Assembly (NCBI RefSeq): GCF_900111275.1
Contig: NZ_FOGR01000004.1
Location: forward strand, 496,001 to 560,000
Direction of reading: 5' to 3'
DNA length: 64,000 nucleotides
Source of the DNA: Rhizobium sp. NFR03
GTDB taxonomy: Bacteria; Pseudomonadota; Alphaproteobacteria; Rhizobiales; Rhizobiaceae
In this document: positions 1 through 25,588 of the stretch, in pieces
Position numbering within the stretch: the stretch's first letter is position 1
How the letters are laid out: every line of letters starts with the position of its first letter
Program-made: the position numbers and the translations under genes
Notes under the pieces: model-generated
Databases searched by the model: none
What the model was told of the DNA's origin: nothing
The model's input: only the letters and a program-made list of their open reading frames with translations

Positions 1-789
1 GCGCTGACCGGCCACCGGGTGCTCGCGATCGATCTCGATCCGCAGGCCTCCCTGTCGGCGCTCTTCGGCTATCAGCCCGAGCTGGACCTCACCGGCAACG
101 ACACGCTCTACGGCGCCATCCGCTACGATGCAGAACAGCGGCCCTTGTCCGACGTCATCCGCCAGACCTATTTCCCCGGGCTCGATCTCGTGCCCGGCAA
201 TATCGAGCTGCAGGAGTTCGAGCATGTGACGCCGCAGGCGCTGGCCGATCGCCAGTCGGGGCGGGAGGGGGCGGGGCCCCTGTTCTTCGCCCGCATCCAG
301 GCCGTTCTGGACACTGTGGAATCCGATTACGATGTGGTCGTCATCGATTGCCCGCCGCAGCTCGGCTATCTCACGCTGTCGGCGCTCTGCGCCTCGACCT
401 CCGTCATCGTCACCGTGCACCCGCAGATGCTGGATATCGCCTCGATGAACCAGTTCCTGTTCATGACGGCCGACCTGCTGTCCGTCGTGCGGGATGCGGG
501 GGGAACGCTGAACTTCGATTTCCTGCGTTACCTCGTCACCCGCTTCGAGCCGAATGACGGGCCGCAGGCGCAGATCGTCGGCTTTATGCGCTCGCTGTTC
601 GGCGAACGGGTGCTGACGGCCCCCATGGTCAAATCGACCGCCGTGTCGGATGCGGGCCTGACCAAGCAGACGCTCTACGAGGTCGGACGAGAGAATTTTA
701 CCCGCGCGACCTACGACCGCGCGGTGGAATCGATGAATGCCGTCAACAGCGAGATCGAAACGCTGGTGCATGCGGTGTGGAACCGCTGA
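1..789 (+). CDS. repA: Plasmid partitioning ATPase RepA (5' truncated by window)
   Basis: ParA/MinD-type ATPase that segregates a repABC replicon and, with RepB, represses its own operon. The reading frame is open from base 1, so the N-terminal DNA-binding part and the Walker A loop lie outside the window. Visible are the DLDPQ segment just after the Walker A region (near base 31), the hydrophobic strand ending in VVVIDCPP (near base 345, the Walker B-type aspartate) and the C-terminal helices. A stop at 787-789 is followed by an 89-bp gap to repB. The family is usually about 400 residues, so roughly a third is missing. The assignment rests on the ParA motifs plus repB and repC in canonical order. 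Confidence 0.96.
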   Translation, partial: ALTGHRVLAIDLDPQASLSALFGYQPELDLTGNDTLYGAIRYDAEQRPLSDVIRQTYFPGLDLVPGNIELQEFEHVTPQALADRQSGREGAGPLFFARIQAVLDTVESDYDVVVIDCPPQLGYLTLSALCASTSVIVTVHPQMLDIASMNQFLFMTADLLSVVRDAGGTLNFDFLRYLVTRFEPNDGPQAQIVGFMRSLFGERVLTAPMVKSTAVSDAGLTKQTLYEVGRENFTRATYDRAVESMNAVNSEIETLVHAVWNR

Positions 790-878
790 CGGGACTTTGC
801 GACGGGCCGCAAGGCGCCGCGCTGTTGCTTAAGGGTTGAGCGAGAGGCTTTCGGGCCGCTTTCGCAGAAAGGGATCGG

Positions 879-2045
879 ATGATGGCGGGGAACCGCAAGA
901 GCGAACTGAAGGCGCTGTTTGGTGGCGGGCTGAGCCCGGCCGACGTGGCGCGTGCGGCGCAGGCTCATAAGCCGGCTCAACAGCTGAGCCCGCAGCCGGG
1001 CACCGAAGGTCCGGCACCGGAGCGGAAATCGGCTGTCGAGGACGGCAGTGCCGGTCCTGCAAGCCCGGGCGAGGGTACGCCGCATACGCGCAGCGCCTCC
1101 AGCGCGGTCAAGGCCATGGGGCTGTCGCTGAATGCCATCACCCGCGAGGCTGAAGAGGCCCGCGTGCTGCGTCAGGCGCTGTTGGAAGGCGAACGCGTTG
1201 TTGGCATCGACCCCGCGCAGATCGAGGCTTCCTTTGTCGAGGATCGCCTGGCGATCGACGGCCCGACGGACGAGGATTTCGAGGCGCTGGTCGAGAGCGT
1301 GCGCGAAGCCGGGCAGCAGGTGCCGGTGCTTCTGCGCCCGCACCCGGAAAAACAGGGCTTCTACCAGACCGCCTATGGCCACCGCCGCATTCGCGCCGCT
1401 GCCCGCCTCGGCCGTCCGGTCAAGGCGGTCATTCGCGCTCTGACCGACGACGAGCTGGTTCTGGCGCAGGGCAAGGAGAACGCCGAGCGGCGCAATCTCT
1501 CCTTCATCGAGCGCGCGCTTTTTGCCCGCAATCTCACCGAGCGGGGTTTCGACCGCAAGACGATCGGCGATGCGCTGGCCGTGCAGAAGAGCGAGCTTTC
1601 GCGGCTGTTGCAGGTGGTCGAGAGCGTGCCGGACCGGTTCATCCGCCACATCGGCCCGGCGCCGAAGGTCGGGCGCGAGCGCTGGATGAAGCTTGGGGAG
1701 ATCCTGTCGAAAGAAGCCCGGCAGGTGCAGTCCATCGACGTCATCCATTCCGCAAAGTTCAAGGCGGCCGACAGCGACCGGCGCTTCCAGATCCTGTTTT
1801 CCCATCTCGACGCCATCGGCAAGCCGATGAAGATCCGGCGCGGGGCAGGAGAGGACGATGCAAGGCCGCTGGCGGATGCACAGGGCCGGGTCTTTGCCCG
1901 GCTCAAGGTGGAGGGCGGGACGACGCGGATCGAGTTTGCCGAGCACACGCCGTCGGCCTTCATCGACGCCGCAGCCGAGCTTCTGGCCAGGGCGCACGAG
2001 ACATTCCAGCGCGACGACACCAGCCATCGTGAAAGCGAAAGCTGA
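879..2045 (+). CDS. repB: Plasmid partitioning protein RepB
   Basis: ParB/KorB-like centromere-binding protein of 388 residues that binds parS and works with RepA. The N-terminus is basic (MMAGNRKSELKALFGGG), as in other RepB proteins. A ParB nuclease-like domain follows at about residues 115-200 (PVLLRPHPEK, then the YGHRRIRAA signature). A helix-turn-helix region lies near 200-250 (KENAERRNLSFIERALFA), with a C-terminal dimerisation part. Two adjacent ATGs (879 and 882) make the exact start ambiguous by one codon. It is followed by the long repB-repC intergenic region typical of repABC operons. Confidence 0.96.
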   Translation: MMAGNRKSELKALFGGGLSPADVARAAQAHKPAQQLSPQPGTEGPAPERKSAVEDGSAGPASPGEGTPHTRSASSAVKAMGLSLNAITREAEEARVLRQALLEGERVVGIDPAQIEASFVEDRLAIDGPTDEDFEALVESVREAGQQVPVLLRPHPEKQGFYQTAYGHRRIRAAARLGRPVKAVIRALTDDELVLAQGKENAERRNLSFIERALFARNLTERGFDRKTIGDALAVQKSELSRLLQVVESVPDRFIRHIGPAPKVGRERWMKLGEILSKEARQVQSIDVIHSAKFKAADSDRRFQILFSHLDAIGKPMKIRRGAGEDDARPLADAQGRVFARLKVEGGTTRIEFAEHTPSAFIDAAAELLARAHETFQRDDTSHRESES

Positions 2046-2155
2046 GCGAACCGCGCGACAACCCCTTGCTGCCTTGAACACCGGGCGGCGAACCGGCCCC
2101 CGAATGTGAAGGGGCCAAACGAGACAAACCAGGAAAGGACGACCAAGAGAGCAAG

Positions 2156-2191
2156 AAAAAAGGCCCCCAAAACGTCACCGTCATGGAAGCC
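2156..2191 (-). terminator. Intrinsic terminator of the ctRNA
   Basis: On the minus strand, GGCTTCCA (2184-2191) pairs with TGGGGGCC (2162-2169), allowing two GU pairs. An inner ACG/CGT extension follows, then six T residues (2156-2161). In repABC systems the same stem-loop on the repC mRNA side takes part in attenuation. Confidence 0.75.
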
Positions 2192-2206
2192 CTCTTCAAT
2201 CTAAGC
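2156..2206 (-). ncRNA. Antisense counter-transcribed RNA (ctRNA/incA) of repABC
   Basis: repABC plasmids encode a roughly 50-60 nt antisense RNA between repB and repC that limits RepC synthesis and sets incompatibility. On the minus strand a -35 box TTGACA (2236-2241) lies 17 bp from a -10-like TTCTCT (2213-2218). About 50 nt downstream is an intrinsic terminator: stem arms 2184-2191 and 2162-2169 (8 pairs including GU), an inner 3-bp extension, and a T run at 2156-2161. Position, strand and size all fit. The exact 5' end is inferred from the promoter spacing. Confidence 0.8.
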
Positions 2207-2212
2207 AGTTCG

Positions 2213-2241
2213 AGAGAATCACTTCCAGCCATCAATGTCAA
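2213..2241 (-). promoter_or_regulatory. Predicted promoter of the ctRNA
   Basis: Minus-strand TTGACA at 2236-2241, a 17-bp spacer and TTCTCT at 2213-2218. The -35 matches consensus and the -10 is weak. It drives the antisense RNA against the repC leader. Confidence 0.6.
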
Positions 2242-2414
2242 GCGTCAGCGGCAGAAATGCCGAACGGCGAAGCTGTGACCGAAGAGTTCCGGTCTCCCCG
2301 CAGAGCCTTCTGACATTGAGGACATCTGTGCCTGAACGCCTGAAAACAAAGGCGTCAGCGAATGAGGACGTGTGCCGTGCCGGGGGAGGCTTGCCTCCCA
2401 ACGGAGATGGAGAG

Positions 2415-3626
2415 ATGGAGAAATTTGCAACGACGCCTTTTGGCGGCGCACGCCTGACTGCGCGCAATTTTGCGCTTCGGACCGATCTTGAGAGGCGGCA
2501 ATCGCGTCTGAGGGACGGCGAGGGCGGCACCGCGACGGGCCAGACGGAGAAGTATCGGATCATACGGGCGCTCAGCGAGGCCCGCACCGTCTGGAACCTC
2601 TCCGACAGAGCGATCGCCGTGCTGGAAGCGCTGGCGAGTTTCCACCACGACCGCCAGCTCGACGGGCGCGCGCCGATCATCGTTTTTCCGTCCAATGCCG
2701 AACTGTCGCTGCGGGCGCGGGGCATGTCTCCCGCCACGCTGCGCCGCCATCTCGCAAGCCTCGTGGAGGCCGGGTTGATCCTGCGCCGCGACAGTGCCAA
2801 CGGCAAGCGCTACTGCCGGCGCGACGATCATGGTGACATCGAAACGGCATTCGGCTTCGACCTTGCGCCTCTGGCGCTGCGGGCCGAGGATATTCTGGCC
2901 AGTGCCGCCATGGTGCGGGACGCAGCGCGGCGTATCTCGCGCCTGCGCGGCGAAATCACCCTGCACCTTCGCGATATCGCCAAGACCATCAACGCAGCCT
3001 TCATCGAGGCCCGCGCGGAACGGGGCGTCGGTCCCTGGCAGGGTTTCGCCGAGCGTCTGCGCGATCTTTCGGGGCGCGTACAGCGTAACGGCACGGAAGA
3101 GGCTTTGTCGGCCCGCCGCGATGCGCTCGTCCGTCTCCGTGCGGAGGTCGAAACCACCTATCTCGACGCGCTTACAGACGACGAAATGAGCGCCAGTGAC
3201 CGTCATTCTGAGCGCCATATTCAGAATTCAGAATCAGAACTCTTATTTGATAAAGCCGGCGAAAGAGTTGAATCGGGAAGCGACATCGGCGAACCCATCG
3301 CACCGGAACGGACATCGACAGGCATCGCGCTGCGGGATTTCCTGACCCTTTGCCCTGACATTGCCGATTATGCCCGTGGTGGCGTCTCGCGATGGCAGGA
3401 TGTGATCGCCGCCGCGGAGGTTGTGCGCTCCATGCTCGGCATCAGCCCCAGCGCCTGGGCCGCCGCGCGATCTGCGATGGGCGAGATCGCCGCGGCCATC
3501 GTGATGGCAGCCATCCTGCAGCGAAGTGCCGCCATCCGCTCGCCCGGCGGCTATCTGCGCAACCTTACCGCCAGGGCTGAGCAGGGACGGTTCTTGATCG
3601 CTCCGATGTTGAAAGCCCTGAGGTAA
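2415..3626 (+). CDS. repC: Replication initiator RepC
   Basis: Replication initiation protein of repABC replicons; the origin normally lies inside the repC gene itself. The frame is open from 2235, but the ATG at 2415 was chosen. It has GGAG just upstream, yields 403 residues (usual length about 400-440), and gives the family-typical N-terminus MEKFATTPFGGARLTARNF. A winged-helix region follows (LSDRAIAVLEALASFHHD, then the segment around PATLRRHLASLVEAGLI at about residues 95-120). The C-terminal domain (from DFLTLCPDIADYA) is the second conserved block. Expression should be limited by the upstream antisense RNA. Confidence 0.95.
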   Translation: MEKFATTPFGGARLTARNFALRTDLERRQSRLRDGEGGTATGQTEKYRIIRALSEARTVWNLSDRAIAVLEALASFHHDRQLDGRAPIIVFPSNAELSLRARGMSPATLRRHLASLVEAGLILRRDSANGKRYCRRDDHGDIETAFGFDLAPLALRAEDILASAAMVRDAARRISRLRGEITLHLRDIAKTINAAFIEARAERGVGPWQGFAERLRDLSGRVQRNGTEEALSARRDALVRLRAEVETTYLDALTDDEMSASDRHSERHIQNSESELLFDKAGERVESGSDIGEPIAPERTSTGIALRDFLTLCPDIADYARGGVSRWQDVIAAAEVVRSMLGISPSAWAAARSAMGEIAAAIVMAAILQRSAAIRSPGGYLRNLTARAEQGRFLIAPMLKALR

Positions 3627-14316: not shown

Positions 14317-14554
14317 GCGACGCCGCGCGGTTCCGGGCGGAGAATAGCTGAGGGCGGTCTTTGGGGAATGAAATACCGCGAAACGGCGTCCGGGTAGATG
14401 GAAATGTCACATCTGCCCGGTCGGGCAGCGTCTACCGTCTTTGAACAGCTTGGAATAACGCGGCATTCTGCACGTGGCTGGTTGCCTCTCATCCACCTCC
14501 CGGATCGATCGCTGCCAGCCGTTCCCCTCTGGAGGTATATCCTTCATGACTTGA

Positions 14555-14584
14555 GGCCGTGGGTTACCCTGCGGCCCTTTTTTT
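14555..14584 (+). terminator. Intrinsic terminator in the 14.3-14.7 kb gap
   Basis: Stem arms GGCCG (14555-14559) and CGGCC (14572-14576) enclose an inner GGG/CCC stem, followed by seven T residues (14578-14584). It is about 240 bp past the glycerate kinase stop and faces the end of the convergent operon. Apart from this I see no gene in 14317-14664. Confidence 0.6.
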
Positions 14585-14664: not shown

Positions 14665-15576
14665 CTACCGCTCGAACGGTTCGCCGAGCGAGGCCACGCC
14701 GTTGAGCTTGAGAAGGCGGCGGTCGGCCGAGATGATGCCGAGAACGATGATGGTGACGAGGTAGGGCAGGCTGGAGAGGAGCTGCGAGGGCAGGTCGAGG
14801 CCGGTGGCCTGCGCTGCGAGCGACATCAGCGATACCGCGCCGAACAGGCATGCGCCGAGGAAGATGCGGCCCGTGAGCCATGTGCCGAAGACGACGAGCG
14901 CAATGGCGATCCACCCGCGCCCGGCAATCATGCCGTCCGCCCAGAGCGGCGTGTAGACCGCAGCCGCATAGGCCCCGGCAAAGCCCGCCATCATGCCCCC
15001 GAAGGCGATGGCCGCCACCCGCACGGCGATGACGGGATAGCCGATGGCGTGCGCGGCCTTCGGGTTCTCGCCCACGGCGCGGATGACGAGGCCGATGCGG
15101 GTAAAGGCGAAGGTCGCCCAGATCGCCAGCGTCGCGAGCAGCGACAGCCAGACGACGGCGTCCTGCACGAAGAGGCCGCCGATGACCGGGATCTCCGAGA
15201 GGCCGGGCACCGCAAGCTTCGGCAGACCCTTGATCGTCAGGCTCTCGTAGCTCTTGCCGAACAGGGCAGACAGGCCCTGACCGAGAATGCCGATGGCAAG
15301 GCCCGTCGCCACCTGATTGGCGCGAAAACCGAGCGCGACGAAGGCGAAGACCAGCGACAGGAGCGCGCCCGCAGCACCCGCCGCGAGAAAGCCGAGAATG
15401 TGGCCGGCGCCGTGATAGACCACGATGAAGGCGATGACGGCGCCGAGCGCCATGAGGCCCTCCACCCCGAGATTGAGAACGCCGGCGCGCTCGACCACCA
15501 TTTCGCCGAGCGCTGCCAGCAGAAAGGGCGTGGCGGCGGCCAGCATGCCGGCGAGGATGAATTCGAGGCCGTTCAT
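14665..15576 (-). CDS. Nucleoside/purine ABC transporter permease 2 (NupQ/YufQ-like)
   Basis: Membrane subunit of 303 residues. The N-terminal block ATPFLLAALGEMVVERAGVLNLGVEGLM is characteristic of permeases paired with BMP-type binding proteins. The cytoplasmic loop VIRAVGENPKAAHAIGYPV is typical too. The ATG (15576) overlaps the upstream permease stop by four bases. It is the last gene of the purine operon. Confidence 0.9.
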   Translation of the reverse strand: MNGLEFILAGMLAAATPFLLAALGEMVVERAGVLNLGVEGLMALGAVIAFIVVYHGAGHILGFLAAGAAGALLSLVFAFVALGFRANQVATGLAIGILGQGLSALFGKSYESLTIKGLPKLAVPGLSEIPVIGGLFVQDAVVWLSLLATLAIWATFAFTRIGLVIRAVGENPKAAHAIGYPVIAVRVAAIAFGGMMAGFAGAYAAAVYTPLWADGMIAGRGWIAIALVVFGTWLTGRIFLGACLFGAVSLMSLAAQATGLDLPSQLLSSLPYLVTIIVLGIISADRRLLKLNGVASLGEPFER

Positions 15577-16670
15577 GATGGTTTCCCCGGTGGGTCGGGC
15601 CATGCGAGGCGATAGCGCACGAAGGCGACGGCGATGAGGTAGGAGAGAAGCAGGCTGCCCTGGAAGACGCGGACCACGGCAATCGGCAGGTTGGCCGAGA
15701 CCATGGCATTGTCGCCGCCGATGTAAATGACGGCCATGACCAGCGACGAGACGATGATGCCGAGCGGATGCAGGGCCCCGAGGTAGGCGACGATGATCGC
15801 CGCATAGCCATAGCCGGTGGGAATGGAGCGCTGAAGCTGGCCGAGCGGCCCCGCAACCTCCGCCGCACCGGCGAGACCGGCGGCAAACCCGCCGATCAGC
15901 AGCGACAGCCAGATCGCCCGGCCCTCGCTGAACCCCGCATAGCTTGCCGCGCGCGGCGCCATGCCGCCCACCTGCAGCTTGTAGCCCATGAAACTCTTCT
16001 GCATGAACACCCAAGCGGCAAGCGATGCGGCGAAGGCGAGAAGAAGCGAGACGTTGACCCGCGTGCCGGGGATCAGCGTCGGCACCATGGCGTCGTACTG
16101 GAAGAGCACGGATTGCGGAAAGTTGAAGCCGTTCGGGTCCTTCCACGGTCCGAGCAGCAGGAAATAGAGAAACTGGATGGCGACGAGGCTCAGCATCAGC
16201 GAGACGAGGATCTCGTTCGCATTCAGCCGGACGCGCCAGAAGGCCGCAATCGACGCCCAGAGCGCGCCGCCGACAGCACCCAGCAGCAGCATGGACGGCC
16301 AGATCCAGCCGCCCGTCGCCTGCGGAAACCAGACCGGGATGGCGGAGGCGAAGATGGCGCCGAGAACGAACTGACCCTCCGCGCCGATGTTGAAGACCCG
16401 CGCGCGAAAGCCGATGGCGAGCCCCTGTGCGATCAGGAGCAGCGGCCCGGTTTTCAGCAGGACCTCGGAGAAGGAGGCCCAGGACAGGAAGGGCTCGAGG
16501 ATCAGCGCGTGGAGCACGGCGGCGGGGTCCCGCCCGATGACCATGGACAGCAGGAGATTGAGAATGATGGCGACCGCGAGCGCGACCGGCGGCGCCACCA
16601 GCTTGGCGGTGAGCGAGGCACGCTCGCGGCGTACCAGAGAGGGGAGAAAGGCAAACGCGGATCTCGTCAT
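15573..16670 (-). CDS. Nucleoside/purine ABC transporter permease 1 (NupP/YufP-like)
   Basis: Membrane subunit of 365 residues with an N-terminal basic cytoplasmic stretch, then about ten hydrophobic segments. Typical features are GLAIGFRARVFNIGAEGQFV and LNANEILVSLMLSLVA, both conserved in permeases of BMP-linked nucleoside importers. ATGA overlaps at both ends show coupling with the ATPase and the second permease. Confidence 0.9.
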   Translation of the reverse strand: MTRSAFAFLPSLVRRERASLTAKLVAPPVALAVAIILNLLLSMVIGRDPAAVLHALILEPFLSWASFSEVLLKTGPLLLIAQGLAIGFRARVFNIGAEGQFVLGAIFASAIPVWFPQATGGWIWPSMLLLGAVGGALWASIAAFWRVRLNANEILVSLMLSLVAIQFLYFLLLGPWKDPNGFNFPQSVLFQYDAMVPTLIPGTRVNVSLLLAFAASLAAWVFMQKSFMGYKLQVGGMAPRAASYAGFSEGRAIWLSLLIGGFAAGLAGAAEVAGPLGQLQRSIPTGYGYAAIIVAYLGALHPLGIIVSSLVMAVIYIGGDNAMVSANLPIAVVRVFQGSLLLSYLIAVAFVRYRLAWPDPPGKPS

Positions 16671-18190
16671 GAGGCAATGCTTTCCCCGGCCGTTTTCGCA
16701 CCGATCATATAGCGGCCGATCTCCTCGGGCTGCGTGTCCCGCGTGATCAGAGGCGGGCTGAGAGTGCCGTGATGCAGGACCTGAAGGGTGTCGCAGAGCT
16801 CGAAAAGCTCTTCCAGTTCCTCGGAAACGACAAGGATCGCCATGCCGGCATTGCGCAGCGCGATGAGCCGCTGGCGGATGGCCGACGCAGCGCCGATATC
16901 CACGCCCCATGTCGGTTGCGCCACGAAAAGCAGCTTCGGCGCCAGCATGATCTCGCGCCCGACGATGAATTTCTGCAGGTTGCCGCCCGAAAGCGAGCCG
17001 GCTTCGCTTTCCGGTCCCTGGCAGCGGACATCGAAATCGCGGATGCAGTCGGTGGTGAAGGCCAGCATGCGGGCCTCATCGACAAGACCGCGCTTCAGAA
17101 GCTTCAGCGGATGGGCCGTCAGCAGGCCGTTCAGCGCCAGAGACATTTCCGGCACGGCGCCGCGACCCAGCCGGTCTTCCGGCACAAAGGCAAAGCCGAG
17201 CGCGCGCCGGTCGGCCGGACGCAACGGCCCGACATCCCGGCCCATCATGAAGATGCGGTCCGGATGCTCCCGCCCGAGCGTGGTTTCGCCGGAGATCAGC
17301 CCCGCCAGCTCGCGCTGGCCATTGCCGGAGATGCCGGCGATCCCCAGGATTTCCCCGGCGCGAACCGTCAGCGTGATATTCGACAAGGGAACGGCGAAGG
17401 GGTCTTCCGGCGTGTGGTCGAGGCCGATGATCTCCAGCTGCTTTTCGCCGCCGGCAAACGGCAGGGCGGGGATCGGCTCGGGCATGTCGCGGCCGATCAT
17501 CATGCGGGCGAGATCCTGCGCGTCATGCTCGCGCGGATCGACATGGCCCGTCACCCGCCCGCCGCGCAGAATGGTCGCGCGGTCGCAGATGGCGCGGATC
17601 TCGTCCAGCTTGTGGGAAATGAAGAGGATCGAGACGCCGCCATCGCGCAAGGCCCGCAGCGTCTCGAACAGCCTGTCGACAAGCTGCGGCGGCAGGACGG
17701 ATGTGGGTTCGTCGAGGATCAGCAGCTTCGGATCGGTCATCAGGCAACGGATGATCTCCACCCGCTGCCGCTCGCCGACCGACAGCGCATGCACATGGGC
17801 CAGCGGATCGACCTCCAGCCCGAAGCTGCGGCCGAGCGCCCGGATGCGCTCGGCAAGCGCGGCCTTGCGCCCGGGCACGACGAGCCGGATGTTTTCAACC
17901 ACCGTCAGGGTCTCGAACAGCGAGAAATGCTGGAAGACCATGCCGATGCCCTTGGCCCTCGCGTCCGCAGGCGAGGCCAGGCTCAAGGGTTGGCCCCGCC
18001 AGACGGCGGTTCCGCCGTCCGGCTGCTCGACGCCATAGATGAGCTTCATCAGCGTCGATTTACCGGCCCCGTTCTCGCCGAGAATCGCGTGGATGGAGCT
18101 TTCGCCCACATCCAGGTCGATCTCCTGATTGGCCCTGATCGGGCCATAGCTCTTGGAAATGCCGCGAAGCGACAGAAGCGGGGCGGTCAT
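16667..18190 (-). CDS. Nucleoside/purine ABC transporter ATPase, double domain (NupO/YufO-like)
   Basis: A 507-residue protein with two tandem ABC domains. The first has Walker A GENGAGKST, signature LSVGERQRVEI and Walker B LLILDEPTSVL. The second is degenerate: GISGNGQRELAGL replaces Walker A, LSGGNLQK is the signature and LLFVAQPTWGVD stands at Walker B. This pattern is normal for sugar/nucleoside-type ATPases. It sits between the BMP gene (3 bp apart) and the first permease (overlap). Confidence 0.92.
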   Translation of the reverse strand: MTAPLLSLRGISKSYGPIRANQEIDLDVGESSIHAILGENGAGKSTLMKLIYGVEQPDGGTAVWRGQPLSLASPADARAKGIGMVFQHFSLFETLTVVENIRLVVPGRKAALAERIRALGRSFGLEVDPLAHVHALSVGERQRVEIIRCLMTDPKLLILDEPTSVLPPQLVDRLFETLRALRDGGVSILFISHKLDEIRAICDRATILRGGRVTGHVDPREHDAQDLARMMIGRDMPEPIPALPFAGGEKQLEIIGLDHTPEDPFAVPLSNITLTVRAGEILGIAGISGNGQRELAGLISGETTLGREHPDRIFMMGRDVGPLRPADRRALGFAFVPEDRLGRGAVPEMSLALNGLLTAHPLKLLKRGLVDEARMLAFTTDCIRDFDVRCQGPESEAGSLSGGNLQKFIVGREIMLAPKLLFVAQPTWGVDIGAASAIRQRLIALRNAGMAILVVSEELEELFELCDTLQVLHHGTLSPPLITRDTQPEEIGRYMIGAKTAGESIAS

Positions 18191-18193
18191 GAC

Positions 18194-19294
18194 TTACTTT
18201 GGCAGCGGGGTGGCGACACCCTTGACGTGCCAGTTCATGGCGATGATCTCCGGGTCGGACATCGCGACGCCCGCACCCACGCCCTCGCTGCCATCCGCCT
18301 TGGTGATCGGCCCGGTGAAAGGCGAGAAGCTGCCGGCGGCGATCTGGCCCTCGAGTTCCTTGATCTTCGTCATGGTGTCGGCCGGGATCGCGGGGTTCCA
18401 GTCCACCACCTCGACCACCTTCTCCGCCACGCCGAGAAACGCGTTCGCGCCCTTGAAGGAGCCGGCGAGGTGCGCGTCCACCGACGCCTTGAAGAAGGGC
18501 GACCAGTCGGTCGATACGCAGCCGAGATAGGTCTTCTCGGCATATTTCTTCATGGAGGAGTTGAGATTGAAGGAATAGACGCCGGCTTCCTCGCAGGCGG
18601 CGACGACGGATGGCGTGTCCTGCGCGTTGGAGAAGATCACATCGCACTTCTGGGCAATCAGCGCCTTGGCGGCTTCCTGCTCCTTGGCGGGATCGAACCA
18701 GGAATTGACCCAGACGACCGAGACCTCGATATCCGGTTTCACGGCCTGCGCGCCGAGCGTGAAGGCGTTGATCGAGGTGATGAGCTCGGGAATGGCGAAG
18801 GCCGAGACCGAGCCGAGCTTGCCCGTCTTGGAAAGGGCTGCCGCCGCCATGCCGAGCAGATAGGTGCCCTGGAAATATTTGGCGGCAAAGGGCGAGAAGT
18901 TCGGCGCGACCTGAAAGCCGGATGCATGCAGCACGGTCACATCGGGGTTGCGGCGGGCGATCTGGAGCGCTCCGTTCTGGTAACCGAATGAACCGGCGAT
19001 CAGCACCTTGTTTCCGTCCGCAACCGTCTTGTTCATGATGCGGTCGGCATCCGGCCCCTCGGCGATGTTTTCGAGAATGGTGACCTTGACCTTGTCGCCA
19101 TAGGCAGCCTTGATCGGCTCCAGACCGGCGGCGAGCGCATGGCCCCAGCCGACATCGCCGACCGGCGAGGGGATGACGAGGGCGATGCCCAGCGGCTCGT
19201 CGGCGGCAAAGGCAAGGCGGCTGCCAATAGCACTGGCAAGGCCGGTGGCTGCGGCCGCCTGCATCAGATGTCGGCGTGTCAGGTTGGTGTTCAC
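18194..19294 (-). CDS. BMP-family purine/nucleoside-binding protein
   Basis: Exported binding protein of 366 residues. The N-terminus TRRHLMQAAAATGLASAIG is a twin-arginine-like signal with cleavage expected after AFA near residue 30. BMP family features include ALVIPSPVGDVGWGHAL, ENIAEGPDADRIM and ADGNKVLIAGSFGYQNG. Rhizobial relatives are often annotated as purine-binding. Neighbouring deaminase and split-oxygenase genes agree with a purine-like ligand. Confidence 0.9.
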   Translation of the reverse strand: MNTNLTRRHLMQAAAATGLASAIGSRLAFAADEPLGIALVIPSPVGDVGWGHALAAGLEPIKAAYGDKVKVTILENIAEGPDADRIMNKTVADGNKVLIAGSFGYQNGALQIARRNPDVTVLHASGFQVAPNFSPFAAKYFQGTYLLGMAAAALSKTGKLGSVSAFAIPELITSINAFTLGAQAVKPDIEVSVVWVNSWFDPAKEQEAAKALIAQKCDVIFSNAQDTPSVVAACEEAGVYSFNLNSSMKKYAEKTYLGCVSTDWSPFFKASVDAHLAGSFKGANAFLGVAEKVVEVVDWNPAIPADTMTKIKELEGQIAAGSFSPFTGPITKADGSEGVGAGVAMSDPEIIAMNWHVKGVATPLPK

Positions 19295-19317: not shown

Positions 19318-20697
19318 TCAGAAATTGACGGTCGCGAGTGCGGCCTCGGCGTCGGCTGCAAGTTTAGCCTCGTCGAGACCCGGAAATTCGCCGTTCGCCC
19401 ACACGATCCGGCCGTTGATCATGGTCATGTCCGTCGCCATGCCGATGCCGACGCGGGGAATGAGGCTCAGCGGATCGTGCCGCGTGCCGACATAATCCAT
19501 GCGGCGGGTGTCGATGGCAAAGAGGTCGGCGGCCATTCCGGGCGCAAGGCGGCCGATATCGCTGCGCCCCAGCAGGCTCGCGCCGCCGCTGGTGCCGTAG
19601 CGCAGGAATTCGACCGGCGGTGGCACCGGATGGGCGCGGGTCGAGGCGGCGAGGCATTGCAGCATGTAGGCCGAGTGCAGGCTGTGCATCAGGTTGGAAT
19701 TGTCGTTGGAGGCCGCACCGTCGCAGCCGAGCCCGATGCGCACACCGAAGGCCGCCATGGCGGGGATGTCGGTGACCTCGGCGCCGACGAGATAGACGGG
19801 CTCCGGGCAATGGGAGACGCCGGTGCCGCTTGCCGCCATTCGCCGCAGCTCGTCATGGGTCAGTTCCCAGCAATGGGCATAGAAGGTATCGGGCCCGGCA
19901 AAGCCGATCTCTTCGAGATAATCGACGGTGCGCAGCCCGTGGCGCGCCTGAATGACCGGGCTTTCGCCTTCGCCGACATGGGTGTGGAGCATCACGCCGC
20001 GATCGCGGGCGAGCGCCACGGATTCCACGAAAGTCTCGCGGTAGGCGTTGACGGGCTGGCAGGGCGCGACGACGACCTGGCGCATGCTGAACGGGCGGGC
20101 GTCGTGATAGCTGTCGATCAGCCGGGCGCAGTCATTGATGAATTCGTCCGTCGTCTCCAGCATCTCGTCGGGGATCGTGGACCCTTCCGATTTGGGCAGC
20201 GTATTGCCGCCGCGACCGGCGTGAAACCGCATGCCGAGGAGATCGGCTGCCTCGAACTGGCGGTCGATCAGCCGCTTTCCGGCGTGGCGGGGAAAATTAT
20301 ACTGGTGATCGAAGGCCGTGGTGCAGCCATGCTTGATCAGCTCGGCCATGGCGGTGAGCGAGGAATGGTAGAAGCAGGCTTCGTTCAGCTGCGAAAAGAC
20401 CGGGTAGATGCGATCGAGCCATTCGATCACCGAGAGCTTCGTCCAGTCGAGATCGGCGCGGTTGCGCACGAAGCACTGGAAAAAATGGTGATGCGTGTTG
20501 ACGAGGCCGGGATAGACGAACCAGCCGGTGGCGTCCTGCACCGTCGTGCCCTCGGGCAGAGCTTCGCCTTCAAGGTTTTCGCCGATAGCGCGGATGGCAG
20601 GGCCTTCAGTCAGGAGATCGACATTGCGGCGCACGACCGGGCCGCTACCGTCGTCGGTGATGACGGCCGCGCAGTTCTTCAGCAGATATCCGCTCAT
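19318..20697 (-). CDS. Zn-dependent amidohydrolase, 8-oxoguanine/purine-deaminase type
   Basis: Amidohydrolase-superfamily enzyme of 459 residues that probably deaminates a purine or pterin ring. PGLVNTHHHFFQ (HHH at residues 69-71) is the metal-binding start. LHTHVGEGE, HCWELTHDE and IGLGCDGAASND supply the remaining ligands and the catalytic aspartate, as in the 8-oxoguanine deaminase/AtzB/TrzN group. The ATG at 20697 overlaps nothing essential; one at 20718 is in frame. It follows the GST-like gene with almost no spacing. The exact substrate (8-oxoguanine, methylguanine or related) is inferred from context. Confidence 0.85.
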   Translation of the reverse strand: MSGYLLKNCAAVITDDGSGPVVRRNVDLLTEGPAIRAIGENLEGEALPEGTTVQDATGWFVYPGLVNTHHHFFQCFVRNRADLDWTKLSVIEWLDRIYPVFSQLNEACFYHSSLTAMAELIKHGCTTAFDHQYNFPRHAGKRLIDRQFEAADLLGMRFHAGRGGNTLPKSEGSTIPDEMLETTDEFINDCARLIDSYHDARPFSMRQVVVAPCQPVNAYRETFVESVALARDRGVMLHTHVGEGESPVIQARHGLRTVDYLEEIGFAGPDTFYAHCWELTHDELRRMAASGTGVSHCPEPVYLVGAEVTDIPAMAAFGVRIGLGCDGAASNDNSNLMHSLHSAYMLQCLAASTRAHPVPPPVEFLRYGTSGGASLLGRSDIGRLAPGMAADLFAIDTRRMDYVGTRHDPLSLIPRVGIGMATDMTMINGRIVWANGEFPGLDEAKLAADAEAALATVNF

Positions 20698-20698
20698 G

Positions 20699-21358
20699 TC
20701 ATGCCTCGTCCTGTTCAAGATGCGGTTCGGGCTTCAGCTCGTGCAGGCGGTGGATACCGGGCATCTCGATGAAGCCCTTGAGCGAGCGGATCGCGCGCGA
20801 CCAGAGGCGGATGGCGGGGTAGGGATCGAGCGATACGCCGCCATCCGGCGCGAGCGCCACATAAGGGAAGCAGGCGATATCGGCGATGGTCGGGCGATCG
20901 GTCACGAGGAAGGCCTGTCCGGCGAGCCGCTGCTCGACAAGGCCGGCTTCAAGCTCGCGAAGGCTGGCAACGCCTCCGGCTTGCAAGGCGGCGATGTCGC
21001 CCGGCCGGAGCAGCATTTCGTGCAGCCGCGCGCCCCCGAGGGTCGCCGTCAGCCGGCTGGAAAAGGCAAGCCATTGCTGCTCGCGCGCCGTCTCCATGGC
21101 TGAGGCGCGGCCGAGCCATTCGGGTGCTGAAAGGCTCGCGATGTAGGCGAGCATGGCCGAGGATTCGGTGAGAACAAGGTCGCCGTCCTCAAGGATCGGG
21201 ATGGAGCCTGCCGGGTTGAGCGAGAGAAGGTCCGGGCCGCGATGTTCCAGGCCGGGATGGAAATCGACGGCGCGCAGATCGAGCTTGATGCCGGCAAGGG
21301 CCGCCATCAGGCGGACTTTGTAGCAGCTGGGCGAAAGGATGTAGTCGTAGAGCTTCAT
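20699..21358 (-). CDS. Glutathione S-transferase-like protein (NdmE-like by context)
   Basis: Protein of 219 residues with an N-terminal thioredoxin-like domain (MKLYDYILSPSCYKVRLMAA, then NPAGSIPILEDGDLVLTESSAMLAYI) and an all-helical C-terminal domain (RPTIADIACFPYVALAPDGG). It is sandwiched between a Rieske-less oxygenase subunit (one-base overlap) and a purine-type deaminase. In caffeine-degrading pseudomonads the GST-like NdmE holds the NdmC/NdmD complex together for N7-demethylation without needing glutathione turnover. A similar structural role is plausible here but unproven. Confidence 0.85.
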   Translation of the reverse strand: MKLYDYILSPSCYKVRLMAALAGIKLDLRAVDFHPGLEHRGPDLLSLNPAGSIPILEDGDLVLTESSAMLAYIASLSAPEWLGRASAMETAREQQWLAFSSRLTATLGGARLHEMLLRPGDIAALQAGGVASLRELEAGLVEQRLAGQAFLVTDRPTIADIACFPYVALAPDGGVSLDPYPAIRLWSRAIRSLKGFIEMPGIHRLHELKPEPHLEQDEA

Positions 21359-22263
21359 TATCGCGCCACCAGCTGTGCGCCATAGGTGTAATCGTGCCGC
21401 TTCAGCCAGCGCCGGTAGGCAATCGAGGTGAGGTCGGCACGGGTCGGAATTTCCATGCCGGGATCGAGCGGCAGGAGCCGGGGGATCTGGTTTTCAAGGA
21501 TCGAGCGATCCTGAAGGAAGATCATCTGCTGGAAATGAATGAGGTCCGTCATCGACGTCTCGTCATCGAAGAGGGCCATCCAAGGCCAGACGTCGCAGAG
21601 ATCCTCAGCCAGCGGCTGCACGAAGAGCGTGATCACATCCCACTCGCTCGGGCGGGGCGGGCAGGTCTTGTAGAGCACCGAGCAGGTCGGGGCGGGGACG
21701 CGGTACATATATTCCGTGGTGATGCCGCCGCTGGCCGACTTCGAGGCCTGCGGCTGGTAGAACTTCACCTGCGTCGCCCAGACTTCATCCACGTCGGCGC
21801 GGATTTCGGCCGTATAGTTCTGCACCTCCGTATGGGGTTCGGCACCCAGCACATCGGTATGTACGAAGGGGAAATGGGCGATGTCGAGAAAGTTCTCGAC
21901 GGCCCGCAGCGGCGAGCAGCGCACGCGCACGACACCGACATCCACGAAGCGACGGCCGGGCTGATCGGCTTCCGGGATCGAAAAGATATCCTTCGTGGGC
22001 GTGCCCAGCGACGACCAGACATGCCCGTAACGCACCTTGACAGGGAGGATGCGACCGTTGCCGCCGGTAACGAGGGGATTGCCCGCATCGTCGCCGGACA
22101 CCACGATCGGCTCGCCCATGAGGGCTGTGTGCCGGCCTGACCTGTCGAGCTGGCTGACGAGGCCGACGGGATACCATTCGTCGATCATGGCTTGATGGGG
22201 TGGGGCCTGATGGGGTGGGGCCTGATGAGGCATCGCCTGTTGCAGCGTTGTCTGGGCGGTCAT
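21358..22263 (-). CDS. Rieske-less oxygenase catalytic subunit (NdmC-like)
   Basis: A 301-residue protein carrying only the catalytic half of a Rieske non-heme iron oxygenase. The mononuclear iron site is visible: NFLDIAHFPFVH supplies D127, H130 and H135, and D252 in FLQDRSILENQ fits the third ligand. No CxH...CxxH Rieske motif exists anywhere in it, yet the first ~100 residues retain a Rieske-like beta scaffold (EWYPVGLVSQLDRS to YGHVWSSLG). The C-terminus SIAYRRWLKRH is like N-demethylases of the NdmA/C type. The extreme N-terminus is a HQAPP repeat from a 15-bp DNA duplication. The start overlaps the stop of the separate Rieske gene (ATGA). Confidence 0.82.
   Translation of the reverse strand: MTAQTTLQQAMPHQAPPHQAPPHQAMIDEWYPVGLVSQLDRSGRHTALMGEPIVVSGDDAGNPLVTGGNGRILPVKVRYGHVWSSLGTPTKDIFSIPEADQPGRRFVDVGVVRVRCSPLRAVENFLDIAHFPFVHTDVLGAEPHTEVQNYTAEIRADVDEVWATQVKFYQPQASKSASGGITTEYMYRVPAPTCSVLYKTCPPRPSEWDVITLFVQPLAEDLCDVWPWMALFDDETSMTDLIHFQQMIFLQDRSILENQIPRLLPLDPGMEIPTRADLTSIAYRRWLKRHDYTYGAQLVAR
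22193..22222. repeat. Tandem 15-bp duplication in the NdmC-like gene
   Basis: TGATGGGGTGGGGCC occurs twice, perfectly, at 22193-22207 and 22208-22222. A degraded third copy starts at 22223. In frame it encodes repeated HQAPP units at the N-terminus of the oxygenase subunit. Confidence 0.9.
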
Positions 22264-22913
22264 TGCACGCCTCCTTTATGGCTGGCACTCTCCGCCATCC
22301 GCCGCAGCCTTTCGACGCTGCGCGATGCTGCAATCCGTGCAGCCGCATCGCTTCCGCTCCTCACGAGCACATGGATCAGGGTCCGGCCCTCCGGCTGATC
22401 GGCGAGCAGCAGACAGAGGTCCTGTCCGGCGATGTTCGTCACGAGGCGACCGTCCTCATCCGCCTGCGCGCCGGCGGCTAACGCAAGGGCGGCGCGGTCC
22501 GCGTCTGCGGTGAGCGAGCGCAACGGGGTGAAGCCGTCGAGATCAGGCGGGTCTCCCGCCGGTATACCGGAGGCAACCCAGACGATACCGCCGGTATCCC
22601 GAACGTCATGGGTCACCACGCGGATGGCGTCGGGTGGCGTCAGGCCGGGATGGGCGGGGATGCGCAGACAGTTTCCGGCCCTGCCATAGCTCCATCCGTG
22701 ATAGATGCAGGACAGCACCTCGCCACGAACGAAGCCGTGCGAGAGGCTCATGCCACGATGGGGACAGCGATCTGCGGAGGCTGCGATATGCCCGGTCTGG
22801 CTGCGCCAGAGGGCAATGGTACCGGCTGCCATGCGCGCCGGAATGACGGTTCCCGCCGGCAGGTCGGCAGAAAGGGCGACTGGCGTCCAGAAGCCCGTCG
22901 TATCGGAGCGCAT
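22260..22913 (-). CDS. Stand-alone Rieske [2Fe-2S] protein
   Basis: A 217-residue protein whose first ~115 residues form a Rieske domain: C50-P-H52 and C69-I-Y-H72, with RCPHRGMSLSHG and SCIYHGWSYG, spaced as in oxygenase Rieske centres. The remaining ~100 residues lack the mononuclear iron motif and resemble no catalytic domain I recognise. Together with the overlapping downstream gene this makes a complete but split oxygenase alpha subunit. No reductase (FMN/2Fe-2S) gene is present nearby, so electrons must come from elsewhere. It is the first gene of the purine operon. Confidence 0.88.
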   Translation of the reverse strand: MRSDTTGFWTPVALSADLPAGTVIPARMAAGTIALWRSQTGHIAASADRCPHRGMSLSHGFVRGEVLSCIYHGWSYGRAGNCLRIPAHPGLTPPDAIRVVTHDVRDTGGIVWVASGIPAGDPPDLDGFTPLRSLTADADRAALALAAGAQADEDGRLVTNIAGQDLCLLLADQPEGRTLIHVLVRSGSDAAARIAASRSVERLRRMAESASHKGGVQ

Positions 22914-23077: not shown

Positions 23078-23347
23078 TTACGACGTCTGCACAGCAAGCG
23101 GTTCGCGGCCGATGGTTTCCACCCAGACATCGATCGGCCCCAGCAGGCAGCCGACCTCCATCATGTCGATCAGCTCTTCCGGTCCGTCCAGTTCAAGCTC
23201 GATCCGCTCGTCATCGGCATGGGAAACGGTCTGCGCGAGCCCCAGACGGTCGGCATGACGGCGGATCCAGGGCAGGAAGGAGGCAGCGCCGAGGTCGCCG
23301 AGGATCGTCATCCGCTGCCGCCTGTCGTTTCGATGTCCCTGCGTCAT
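23078..23347 (-). CDS. Acylphosphatase-like small protein
   Basis: An 89-residue protein aligning in outline with acylphosphatases: the helix LPWIRRHADRLGLAQTV, a central strand and the segment ELDGPEELIDMMEVGCLLGPIDVW. The catalytic phosphate-binding GxVQGVxFR motif is missing: the corresponding segment is DLGAASFLPW, with no arginine. It is therefore probably not an active acylphosphatase. ATG 23347 is preceded by a GGACGAG ribosome-binding site; a GTG at 23386 is also in frame and ATG 23311 is possible. Confidence 0.6.
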   Translation of the reverse strand: MTQGHRNDRRQRMTILGDLGAASFLPWIRRHADRLGLAQTVSHADDERIELELDGPEELIDMMEVGCLLGPIDVWVETIGREPLAVQTS

Positions 23348-23410
23348 AAAGATCTCGTCCGGTTCGGCATGAAGATGTTCGTCCACTGTGACGGATGCGG
23401 GCGCCGGGCG

Positions 23411-23797
23411 TCAAGCCGGCGGGCTCACCCGGTCCTCGTCGAATTGCTCGGTTCCCGGAAGGGCGGCCAACCACGTCTCGCGGCGCTTCGTCCAAAGCTC
23501 GTAGCTCGGCGCCAGCCCGCTCGGCGCATCCGTCAGGCTGCCAAGCTTGATCTCGGCTTCCTCGTCGTTCAGCGAAAACAGCCGCGATCCGCAGGCAGGG
23601 CAGAACCGGCGCTCGGCATAGTCCACCGTCTCTCCATGACCCTCGAAAGCGGATGCGGGCCAGATGCCGAAGAAGGCGAAGGCCGATCCGCTTTCCCTCC
23701 GGCAATCGGTGCAATGGCAGATGCCGACCCGCAGCGGCTCGCCTGCGACCCTGAAGCGGACATTGCCACACCGGCATGATCCTTCCCGCACTGTCAT
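23411..23797 (-). CDS. GFA/CENP-V-type zinc protein
   Basis: A 128-residue protein of the GFA (glutathione-dependent formaldehyde-activating-like) family. Zinc ligands are visible in SCRCGNVRF (C8, C10), ICHCTDCRR (C27, C29, C32) and FCPACGSRLF (C66, C69). Most family members have no established reaction; many are simply small zinc proteins linked to electrophile or thiol metabolism. It is a single gene facing the TrxR-like gene's 3' end. Confidence 0.88.
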   Translation of the reverse strand: MTVREGSCRCGNVRFRVAGEPLRVGICHCTDCRRESGSAFAFFGIWPASAFEGHGETVDYAERRFCPACGSRLFSLNDEEAEIKLGSLTDAPSGLAPSYELWTKRRETWLAALPGTEQFDEDRVSPPA

Positions 23798-23869: not shown

Positions 23870-25588
23870 TCAGGTGGAACCGTTGGCGAGGCCCGATGCC
23901 GGCCGGGCGGGTGGGTTCGCGCTCAGCGCCGCATGGATCTGGGAGACCACGGCCGCGCCTTCGCCGACCGCTGCGGCAACGCGTTTGGTGGAGCCGGCGC
24001 GCACGTCGCCGATGGCAAAGACGTTGGGCAGGCTGGTTTCGAGCGGCAAAGGGGTGCGGGTGACATTGCACTGCGCGTCGAAGGTCTGGCCCGTGACGAT
24101 GAAGCCTTTTGCGTCGACATGGACGCGGCCGCTGACCCAGCCTGTGTTCGGGTCCGCGCCGATGAAGAGGAACAGATGGTGAAGGGCGAGTTGCTGCGTG
24201 CTGCCGTCGCGCCGGTTGCGCAGGGTGGCGGAGGAGAGACCGGTGACGGGATCGCCGCCGACGGCATCCACCTCGCAGTTCATGTGAATCTGGACATTCG
24301 GCAGCGCCTTGATGCGGTCGATCAGATATTGCGACATGGTTTCCTCCAGCGCCCGCCGGACGACGAGATGCAGGGTCTGCACCTGCGGGGCCAGAAACAC
24401 GATGGCCTGACCTGCCGAATTGCCGCCGCCGACCAGAGCCACCTCTTCGCCGGCGCAGAGCTTGGCCTCGATGGGTGACGCCCAGTAGGATACGCCATTG
24501 CCTTCGAAGGTGGCGATACCGGCGACATCGGGCCGTCGATACCGCGCGCCGGAGGCGATGACCACGGTGCGCGCGTCCACGCTCATGCCGCCCGCAAGGT
24601 CGAGCTTCAACGGGCTCCGCGCATCAGCGGGCGAAACCAGACGATCGACCTCGACCGGAAGGACGATCTCCGCGCCGAATTTCAGCGCCTGATTATAGGC
24701 GCGACCGGCCAGAGCCTGGCCGGAAATGCCGGTGGGGAAGCCGAGATAATTCTCGATGCGCGATGACGCACCGGCCTGACCACCGACGGAGCGTTCGTCG
24801 ATGACGATGACATCGAGCCCTTCGGAGGCCGCATAGACGGCCGTGGCAAGCCCGGCGGGACCGGCGCCGACGACCGCGACATCATAGATCTTTCCCGCAA
24901 CGAGCTGCGGCGTCATGCCGAGGCAGGCTGCGGCCTCCGCATCGGTCGGATCCCGAAGCACCGTGCCATTCGGGCAGACCATCAGCGGAAGCTCGGAGGG
25001 GACGATGCCCAGCCGTTCGATGAGCGCCCGGCCTTCGCCTTCGATGGCGGCGTCGAGCACGACATAGGGAAAGGCGTTGCGGGCGAGAAAACCCTGAAGG
25101 CGCGCAAGGGCTGCGTGGCCGGCCGTGCCGATGAGAACGGAGCCGGCGCCGGCATCGATCAGGCCGACGCGGCGCAGGATGAAGGAGCGCATGATGATCT
25201 CGCCCACATCCGCCGAGCCGATGACCAGCGCCCGCAAATGTGCGGCGTCGAAGGCGACAGCCGTGCAGCCCGACGCCCCGGCCCGCGCACCGGCAAGCGT
25301 CGGGCGGCGGGAGAGCTGGTTTACCTCGCCGGACAGCTGACCGACCGTGTGCGTGGTGATCGGCGCCTCGTGCGGCAGGCCCCCGGCCTGAAGACCTTCA
25401 TGGCGAAAGACGTCCATCGACCCGTCGAGCACCAGCCAGGCAGGGGCCGCGTGATCGCCCACCTTGTAGATGAACGCGCCGGGTTCGAAATGCTGCGGCT
25501 CGCCCAGCGCGAAACGTCTGGCGATATCAACCTGATGCGGGCTGAGCACCGGAAACATCTGGTGCTGACGTGCGCTGAGATCTGCCAT
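23870..25588 (-). CDS. cNMP-binding domain/thioredoxin-reductase-like flavoprotein
   Basis: A 572-residue fusion. Residues ~15-140 look like a cyclic-nucleotide-binding beta-roll (FEPGAFIYKVGDHAAPAWLVL). An intermediate region of about 60 residues follows. From ~235 there is an FAD/NAD(P)H reductase fold with VVGAGPAGLATAVYAASEGL, GGQAGASSRIENYLGFP and LVGGGNSAGQAIVFLA, ending with ETSLPNVFAIGDVRAGS. The redox CxxC of true thioredoxin reductases is absent. The gene is followed upstream by a UBP zinc-finger gene and a FixJ-type two-component system, a cluster seen in other rhizobia. The ligand and electron acceptor are unknown. Confidence 0.88.
   Translation of the reverse strand: MADLSARQHQMFPVLSPHQVDIARRFALGEPQHFEPGAFIYKVGDHAAPAWLVLDGSMDVFRHEGLQAGGLPHEAPITTHTVGQLSGEVNQLSRRPTLAGARAGASGCTAVAFDAAHLRALVIGSADVGEIIMRSFILRRVGLIDAGAGSVLIGTAGHAALARLQGFLARNAFPYVVLDAAIEGEGRALIERLGIVPSELPLMVCPNGTVLRDPTDAEAAACLGMTPQLVAGKIYDVAVVGAGPAGLATAVYAASEGLDVIVIDERSVGGQAGASSRIENYLGFPTGISGQALAGRAYNQALKFGAEIVLPVEVDRLVSPADARSPLKLDLAGGMSVDARTVVIASGARYRRPDVAGIATFEGNGVSYWASPIEAKLCAGEEVALVGGGNSAGQAIVFLAPQVQTLHLVVRRALEETMSQYLIDRIKALPNVQIHMNCEVDAVGGDPVTGLSSATLRNRRDGSTQQLALHHLFLFIGADPNTGWVSGRVHVDAKGFIVTGQTFDAQCNVTRTPLPLETSLPNVFAIGDVRAGSTKRVAAAVGEGAAVVSQIHAALSANPPARPASGLANGST

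Follow-up and report, generated by a model that had tools for sequence, protein, structure and literature searches.

A conserved, reductase-free variant of the NdmCDE kind with a free Rieske subunit in an operon of Rhizobium sp. NFR03

How can a Rieske oxygenase operate when its [2Fe-2S] cluster and its mononuclear iron are encoded on separate chains and no reductase gene stands beside them? This question is raised by an eight-gene operon in a 64,000-nucleotide stretch of Rhizobium sp. NFR03 (contig NZ_FOGR01000004.1, positions 496,001 to 560,000; hereafter the window), in which an earlier note, made from the sequence alone, had seen a split oxygenase with a glutathione S-transferase (GST)-like protein. 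The operon is real and conserved, a variant of the NdmCDE kind that, among the best 80 relatives, occurs mostly in Rhizobiaceae and Rhodobacterales. What computation shows is homology, fold, motif loss, the conserved operon, and purine genes beside relatives. On balance, we favour a role in which a modified purine is taken up and then demethylated oxidatively by a split oxygenase with the GST-like protein as third component; the complex, its electron path, the demethylation, and a 7-methylguanine-like substrate are what we infer. The genes are arranged as follows.

22260..22913, minus strand: Rieske subunit (alpha-prime), 217 amino acids, ATG start; Rieske [2Fe-2S] domain plus an apparent C-terminal catalytic-domain remnant of about 90 residues.
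21358..22263, minus strand: catalytic subunit (NdmC-type alpha), 301 amino acids, ATG start; N-terminal cluster-less Rieske core ahead of the mononuclear-iron domain.
20699..21358, minus strand: NdmE-type GST-like subunit, predicted to be structural, 219 amino acids; GST_N 52.8 bits, groups with NdmE-type GSTs.
19318..20697, minus strand: amidohydrolase deaminase, 8-oxoguanine-deaminase-like, 459 amino acids; Amidohydro_1 169 bits.
18194..19294, minus strand: BMP/PnrA-type substrate-binding protein of an ATP-binding cassette (ABC) importer; Pfam Bmp 136 bits.
16667..18190, minus strand: ABC importer ATPase with two nucleotide-binding domains; ABC_tran in two stretches.
15573..16670, minus strand: ABC importer permease 1; Rhizobiaceae homologues at the same place are mostly 75-87% identical; start MTRSAFAF taken from the translation.
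14665..15576, minus strand: ABC importer permease 2; homologues at the same place in relatives; ATG and frame checked.

The Rieske, catalytic, GST, and deaminase genes overlap or almost touch, and a frame check shows a 4-bp overlap between the catalytic start and the Rieske stop. Pfam scores of the first three lie above cut-off (Rieske 72.2 bits, VanA_C 64.2 bits, GST_N as listed). The three-gene module of the earlier note is real: its coordinates, frames, and the metal-ligand residues of the Rieske and catalytic open reading frames (ORFs) all hold, with the deaminase start moved, most likely, from 20718 to 20697. The operon also continues, as had been claimed, into the deaminase and a BMP/PnrA-type importer, whose binding protein (Bmp), ATPase, and pair of permeases share a single operon; both permeases were assigned via position and homology to the relatives' genes, without a family scan.

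The two metal sites are divided between the two chains. C50, H52, C69, and H72 are invariant across 21 aligned Rieske proteins, and D127, H130, H135, and D252 across 25 aligned catalytic proteins. The CxH...CxxH motif occurs in 110/110 stand-alone Rieske proteins and in 0/123 catalytic proteins (a set that takes in fused-NdmD loci and, as the two locus sets have a few genomes in common, some near-duplicate rows). Conversely, D..H....H is present in all 123 catalytic proteins, while a similar string past residue 115 is found in 2 of the 110 Rieske proteins. The catalytic subunit is thus no ordinary alpha-subunit, which holds cluster and mononuclear iron on one chain.

Structure comparison assigns the alpha-subunit fold to both proteins, as their predicted models superpose on the single-chain oxygenases SxtT and GxtA across nearly the full length. 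In an hhalign comparison (E 1.2e-48), the catalytic profile covers residues 5-333 of a single-chain oxygenase but lacks the part that binds the cluster. Pfam detects a single domain in the window Rieske protein. Judged from its model, this protein is a degenerate full-length alpha-subunit, vestigial catalytic domain included; the separate small protein of the earlier note is free, as proposed, but comprises more than a Rieske domain. Plain gene fission, in which one ordinary Rieske oxygenase gene was cut into N- and C-terminal halves, would account for the tiled sequence matches of the two proteins (Rieske protein to SxtT 12-130, catalytic protein to SxtT 109-333). We disfavour it as very improbable, since each subunit still holds the fold portion that fission should have removed: cluster-less Rieske core strands stand ahead of the catalytic domain in the catalytic subunit, and NdmD-like fusions have a related stretch behind their Rieske domain. 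Rather, both proteins may derive from complete Rieske-oxygenase alpha-subunits, of which one would have lost the iron site and the other the cluster-binding part. Because these losses are complementary, one working unit would need both proteins.

Is the split maintained elsewhere? One genome per species was scanned with the catalytic alignment; at least 536 stretches encode a relative (not all split), and the best 80, mostly from Rhizobiaceae and Rhodobacterales, were used. Rieske, catalytic, and GST genes are found together in 80/80 (in one of them in broken frames) and all eight genes in 64/80, some of the others ending at a contig end. Rhizobium johnstonii 3841 has the same eight genes (RL_RS29070 to RL_RS29105) on pRL10. 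The 4-bp overlap of the in-frame catalytic start with the Rieske stop is kept in 77/79 loci. Among close pairs, the median ratio of nonsynonymous to synonymous substitution rates (dN/dS; NG86) stands at 0.22 over 63 pairs in the Rieske protein, at 0.11 over 394 pairs in the GST, and at 0.08 over 1024 pairs in the catalytic protein. The C-terminal extension of the Rieske protein has the highest median of the parts measured (0.31, maximum 1.0, 63 pairs) and is therefore under the weakest constraint. Like fission, we reject frameshift or chance as the origin of the split, on the kept overlap, purifying selection, and the vestigial domains. This conservation also bears on the idea that the small Rieske protein is the ferredoxin of another oxygenase, with the catalytic subunit reduced otherwise. 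We find this barely credible: the overlap and the co-occurrence in all 80 relatives bind the Rieske gene to the catalytic gene, the whole-length structural match of the Rieske protein is to oxygenase alpha-subunits, and NdmD is described with a Rieske domain that NdmC requires (PMC10380055).

The relative in broken frames is Rhizobium sp. RCAM05350 (L146 9324-17607), where the same operon falls into several frames through decay or assembly errors; this locus was left out of the motif, overlap, and dN/dS counts but included in the gene-content count. The N terminus of the window catalytic protein (22189-22263, minus strand) consists of a PHQAP-type tandem repeat that is absent from the relatives aligned, the shared part beginning at about M26; the relatives' starts in this alignment were picked by script.

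Which known system does the operon resemble? NdmCDE, the 7-methylxanthine N7-demethylase of Pseudomonas putida CBB5, likewise combines a Rieske-less catalytic subunit and a GST-like partner with a Rieske domain on another chain; it contains three of each subunit and measures 360 kDa (PMC10380055). The window encodes a 2-His-1-Asp catalytic subunit without a Rieske cluster and a GST-like, NdmE-type partner. In NdmD, however, the Rieske domain is fused to a flavin mononucleotide (FMN)/NADH/2Fe-2S reductase, whereas the window has a free 217-residue Rieske protein and no reductase nearby. We do not file the system as NdmCDE because this defining feature is missing. Unlike NdmCDE, the operon further includes an importer and a deaminase. 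All the same, it very likely works like NdmCDE.

This likeness was measured through homologues from two plasmid loci rather than through the CBB5 sequences. A Klebsiella locus (L156) encodes a protein orthologous to NdmB (623 bits) in a cluster with NdmC-, NdmD-, and NdmE-like genes, and a Pseudomonas locus (L157) encodes a 585-residue reductase fusion whose match to the NdmD ferredoxin chain 6icm_D is at 1.7e-34, also with NdmC- and NdmE-like neighbours. These loci link the family to methylxanthine demethylation. Identities of their proteins to those of the window were 44-45% for the catalytic subunit, 39-41% for the GST, and 37-39% over about 105 residues for the Rieske protein. The best solved relatives of the Rieske and catalytic proteins, by sequence and model, are SxtT and GxtA (PDB 6wn3, 6wnc), followed by NdmA. 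SxtT and GxtA differ from the window system as single chains with both metal sites that form homotrimers (PMC12445004). NdmA and NdmB, the N1- and N3-demethylases, are purine N-demethylating Rieske oxygenases that match both subunits structurally; they differ in that each chain carries a Rieske cluster and an iron site, and the source text available describes no GST partner for them.

In the catalytic tree, split and NdmD-fused proteins group together, away from the six single-chain oxygenases included (SH-aLRT 96, long branches). As the earlier note had expected, the nearest kin of the catalytic subunit are thus NdmC-type proteins and not unrelated Rieske families. All trees were made by a quick method and have long branches; a single-chain enzyme (L072) served as outgroup. 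A clade of 60 split rows has a support of 96; once the long-branched L189 is placed among the split rows, the support drops to 53, with 14 for the fused type. Architecture changes twice on this tree, the least possible. In the Rieske tree, the NdmD fusions are one clade (98) and the free form has support 0. In the GST tree, the fused type nests within the split type, beside the clade of the window (99). On these trees, either the free or the fused form may have come first.

The GST of the window belongs to a 41-row group in which all 11 fused-locus NdmE-type GSTs lie (SH-aLRT 99), as its description as NdmE-like implies. That description fares less well for the family as a whole: 16 GSTs from other split loci lie outside the group, and the branch separating the family from eight other GSTs of the same genome has a support of only 74. 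We read the GST alignment against an acidic residue followed by Ser, which we take to be the usual glutathione-site motif. Ser follows the acidic residue in 7 of 18 aligned GSTs, including that of the window, Thr in three, and another residue in eight. Read from the alignment, this variation fits a structural role for the GST family, as proposed for NdmE in NdmCDE (PMC10380055).

What then reduces the Rieske subunit? The reductase that the earlier note found missing is encoded neither in the operon nor beside it, and no reductase-like ORF is present in the stretches of 78/80 close relatives; its lack is therefore not a local loss. In a sample from the window's order, 55/297 genomes match at E ≤ 1e-5, the weakest probably with ordinary oxygenases. 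The 40 stretches from the order (L035-L074) comprise eight with a fused NdmD-like reductase, two with a separate reductase, one with a single-chain enzyme (L072), and 29 without a reductase-like ORF; two of them, L074 and L056, lie on one contig and have a single Rieske gene in common. In the phylum sample, a search with the NdmC-like protein of L157 matched 16/398 genomes at E ≤ 1e-40. L188 was provisionally classed as fused from a 418-residue ORF matching both parts.

VanB/NdmD-type reductases at E ≤ 1e-6 are present in 18/27 module-bearing genomes and not found in the other nine, three of which are single-contig (G145, G080, G225). The genome of the window's strain has 12 Fer2 matches, other 2Fe-2S ferredoxin-type proteins. 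Given the nine genomes and these Fer2 proteins, a general ferredoxin with its reductase is the likely electron source. A specific, distant reductase would be compatible with the demethylase role and is possible, although doubtful. The genome search for an orphan reductase suggested by the earlier note did return one close NdmD-type homologue (G000:C14:284495; 39%), the only one in this genome and on the same contig as the operon, and free-Rieske modules with such a reductase nearby exist (L059, L071, L195). This gene is, however, no orphan but adjoins a gene for a haem-dependent oxidative N-demethylase (HODM-type, PF11927), and in one third of the module-bearing genomes no such reductase was found at E ≤ 1e-6. 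The next match in the genome is weak (26%, E 1.3e-7) and lies near a different Rieske protein gene.

Three loci show variants of the module. L189 9265-10800, from a genome related to the window's only at the level of the phylum, is a free-Rieske module that includes a catalytic and a GST gene; its Rieske part lies at the end of an over-long ORF and was counted as split. L195 9122-12072, from the window's own family, has Rieske, catalytic, and GST genes followed by a reductase ORF that overlaps or comes after the GST gene, and its catalytic ORF is only 189 residues long. On Sinorhizobium meliloti pSymA (L158 9812-20363), three NdmC-type catalytic paralogues accompany one NdmD-like fusion and one GST, so that one Rieske/reductase may serve several catalytic subunits. 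A 2015 review places ndmCDE homologues of unknown function mostly in Sinorhizobium and Mesorhizobium (PMC4408171). The S. meliloti locus is of the fused type, in contrast to the free-Rieske type of the window's clade.

Which substrate does the operon serve? The best NCBIfam match of the window deaminase is 8-oxoguanine deaminase (NF006055; 373 bits, cut-off 532), and guanine deaminase (TIGR02967) scores 115 bits against a cut-off of 375. The purine setting seen in the earlier note is corroborated by relatives of the split clade, several of which adjoin purine genes. In a scan of 24 distinct neighbouring ORFs, taken from 10 loci that were picked by eye to be diverse, which gives examples and not frequencies, guanine deaminase is found above cut-off beside L055, L056, and L060, adenosine deaminase beside L055 (above cut-off) and L056 (by Pfam), and 8-oxoguanine deaminase adjoining L056 (598 bits, cut-off 532). 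The L063 neighbour is xanthine-dehydrogenase-like (best pucD, 670 bits, below its cut-off of 784). Other scanned neighbours are unrelated (amidases, aminotransferase, phosphotransferase, sensor kinase, GMC oxidoreductase, enoyl-CoA hydratase). Three enzymes encoded in the genome itself score above cut-off: XdhB at 1381 bits, formaldehyde dehydrogenase at 589 bits, and, away from the operon, a canonical guanine deaminase at 572 bits. A demethylase beside a deaminase would suit an N-methylated aminopurine, for example 7-methylguanine.

The same complex might instead perform other chemistry on a purine that is not methylated at a ring nitrogen, by hydroxylation or dealkylation, for example aminopurine ring oxidation or N6-dealkylation of a cytokinin. 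Ring oxidation would feed an 8-oxoguanine deaminase, the best family of the window enzyme and, above cut-off, of the relative adjoining the L056 catalytic gene; HpxD proteins annotated as xanthine hydroxylases also appear among the distant matches. At 28-29% over 57% of the query, these HpxD matches are weak; the closest relatives whose function is known, the NdmC type, strip N-methyl groups, and a literature search for cytokinin degradation by Rieske enzymes yielded nothing relevant. We consider this alternative unlikely, if less so than fission.

In the demethylation scheme that we prefer, the BMP-type ABC importer would bring in the purine as base or nucleoside. The catalytic subunit would bind it and activate O2 at the 2-His-1-Asp iron, receiving electrons from the cluster of the Rieske subunit; a general ferredoxin or reductase would supply these, which we propose because none is encoded alongside the operon. 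The GST-like protein might tether the Rieske and catalytic subunits, comparable to the supposed role of NdmE in NdmCDE. The dedicated deaminase would take off the exocyclic amino group, whether ahead of demethylation or once it is complete, the resulting xanthine would enter the host xanthine dehydrogenase route, and formaldehyde would pass to glutathione-dependent formaldehyde dehydrogenase.

Several observations weigh against this scheme. The catalytic subunit, at 44-45% identity, sits in a clade separate from NdmC-type proteins, and its substrate may therefore differ from that of NdmC. The deaminase stays below the cut-off of every NCBIfam family among 25 of 31 matches listed. The Glu-Ser pair is intact in the window GST and in its closest kin, so the window protein may bind glutathione. 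An hhalign comparison of the Rieske C-terminal extension with the catalytic domain is not convincing, confidence dropping beyond about residue 125, and block means of 51-59 over residues 131-150 make the catalytic model weak around H135. Finally, a separate reductase gene lies close by in 2/40 order loci (L059, L071) and in L195, as exceptions.

A bolder version can be offered tentatively. The two paralogous alpha-subunits, each without the other's metal site, might form an obligate pair on a GST scaffold, fed by the general ferredoxin pool; the NdmD fusion would then be derived, and the rhizobial version would be a dedicated salvage system for methylated aminopurines such as 7-methylguanine from RNA turnover. 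If true, an electron-transferring pair with a GST scaffold would be a new Rieske-oxygenase architecture. The structure of the NdmCDE complex was still unsolved according to a 2026 paper (PMC13237722), and the smaller, reductase-free variant in the window offers a hypothesis of how NdmC and NdmD fit together, namely as two complementarily degenerate alpha-subunits. Moreover, the operon is a candidate route of methylated-purine use in root-nodule and other alphaproteobacteria. In the open-licence papers searched, we recognised no description of a free-Rieske NdmC system.

Around the operon, the remaining ORFs were clustered under strict settings (E ≤ 1e-20, a minimum of 8 loci) to look for a ninth conserved gene or a regulator, and only two families resulted, each in 12/80 loci. 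A small ORF lies ahead of the Rieske gene (23078-23386, minus strand), where the strain 3841 record annotates an acylphosphatase; a similar ORF is present in 12/80 loci, and a Pfam scan of the matching strain 3841 protein gave no match. As parts of the system we rejected a formaldehyde-activating-family gene (23411-23797) and a cyclic-nucleotide-binding/thioredoxin-reductase-like gene (23870-25588), both unmatched at E ≤ 1e-8 in the 40 + 80 relatives' stretches. Rfam gave no purine riboswitch; its only window match at gathering score is the alphaproteobacterial small RNA ar15 (14476-14582, plus strand, 52.2 bits), just downstream of the last gene of the operon. Finally, the window opens with partition/replication genes (1-3626) which, by the family look of the ORF list, are presumably repABC, and these repABC-like genes suggest that the 708-kb contig is a plasmid or chromid.
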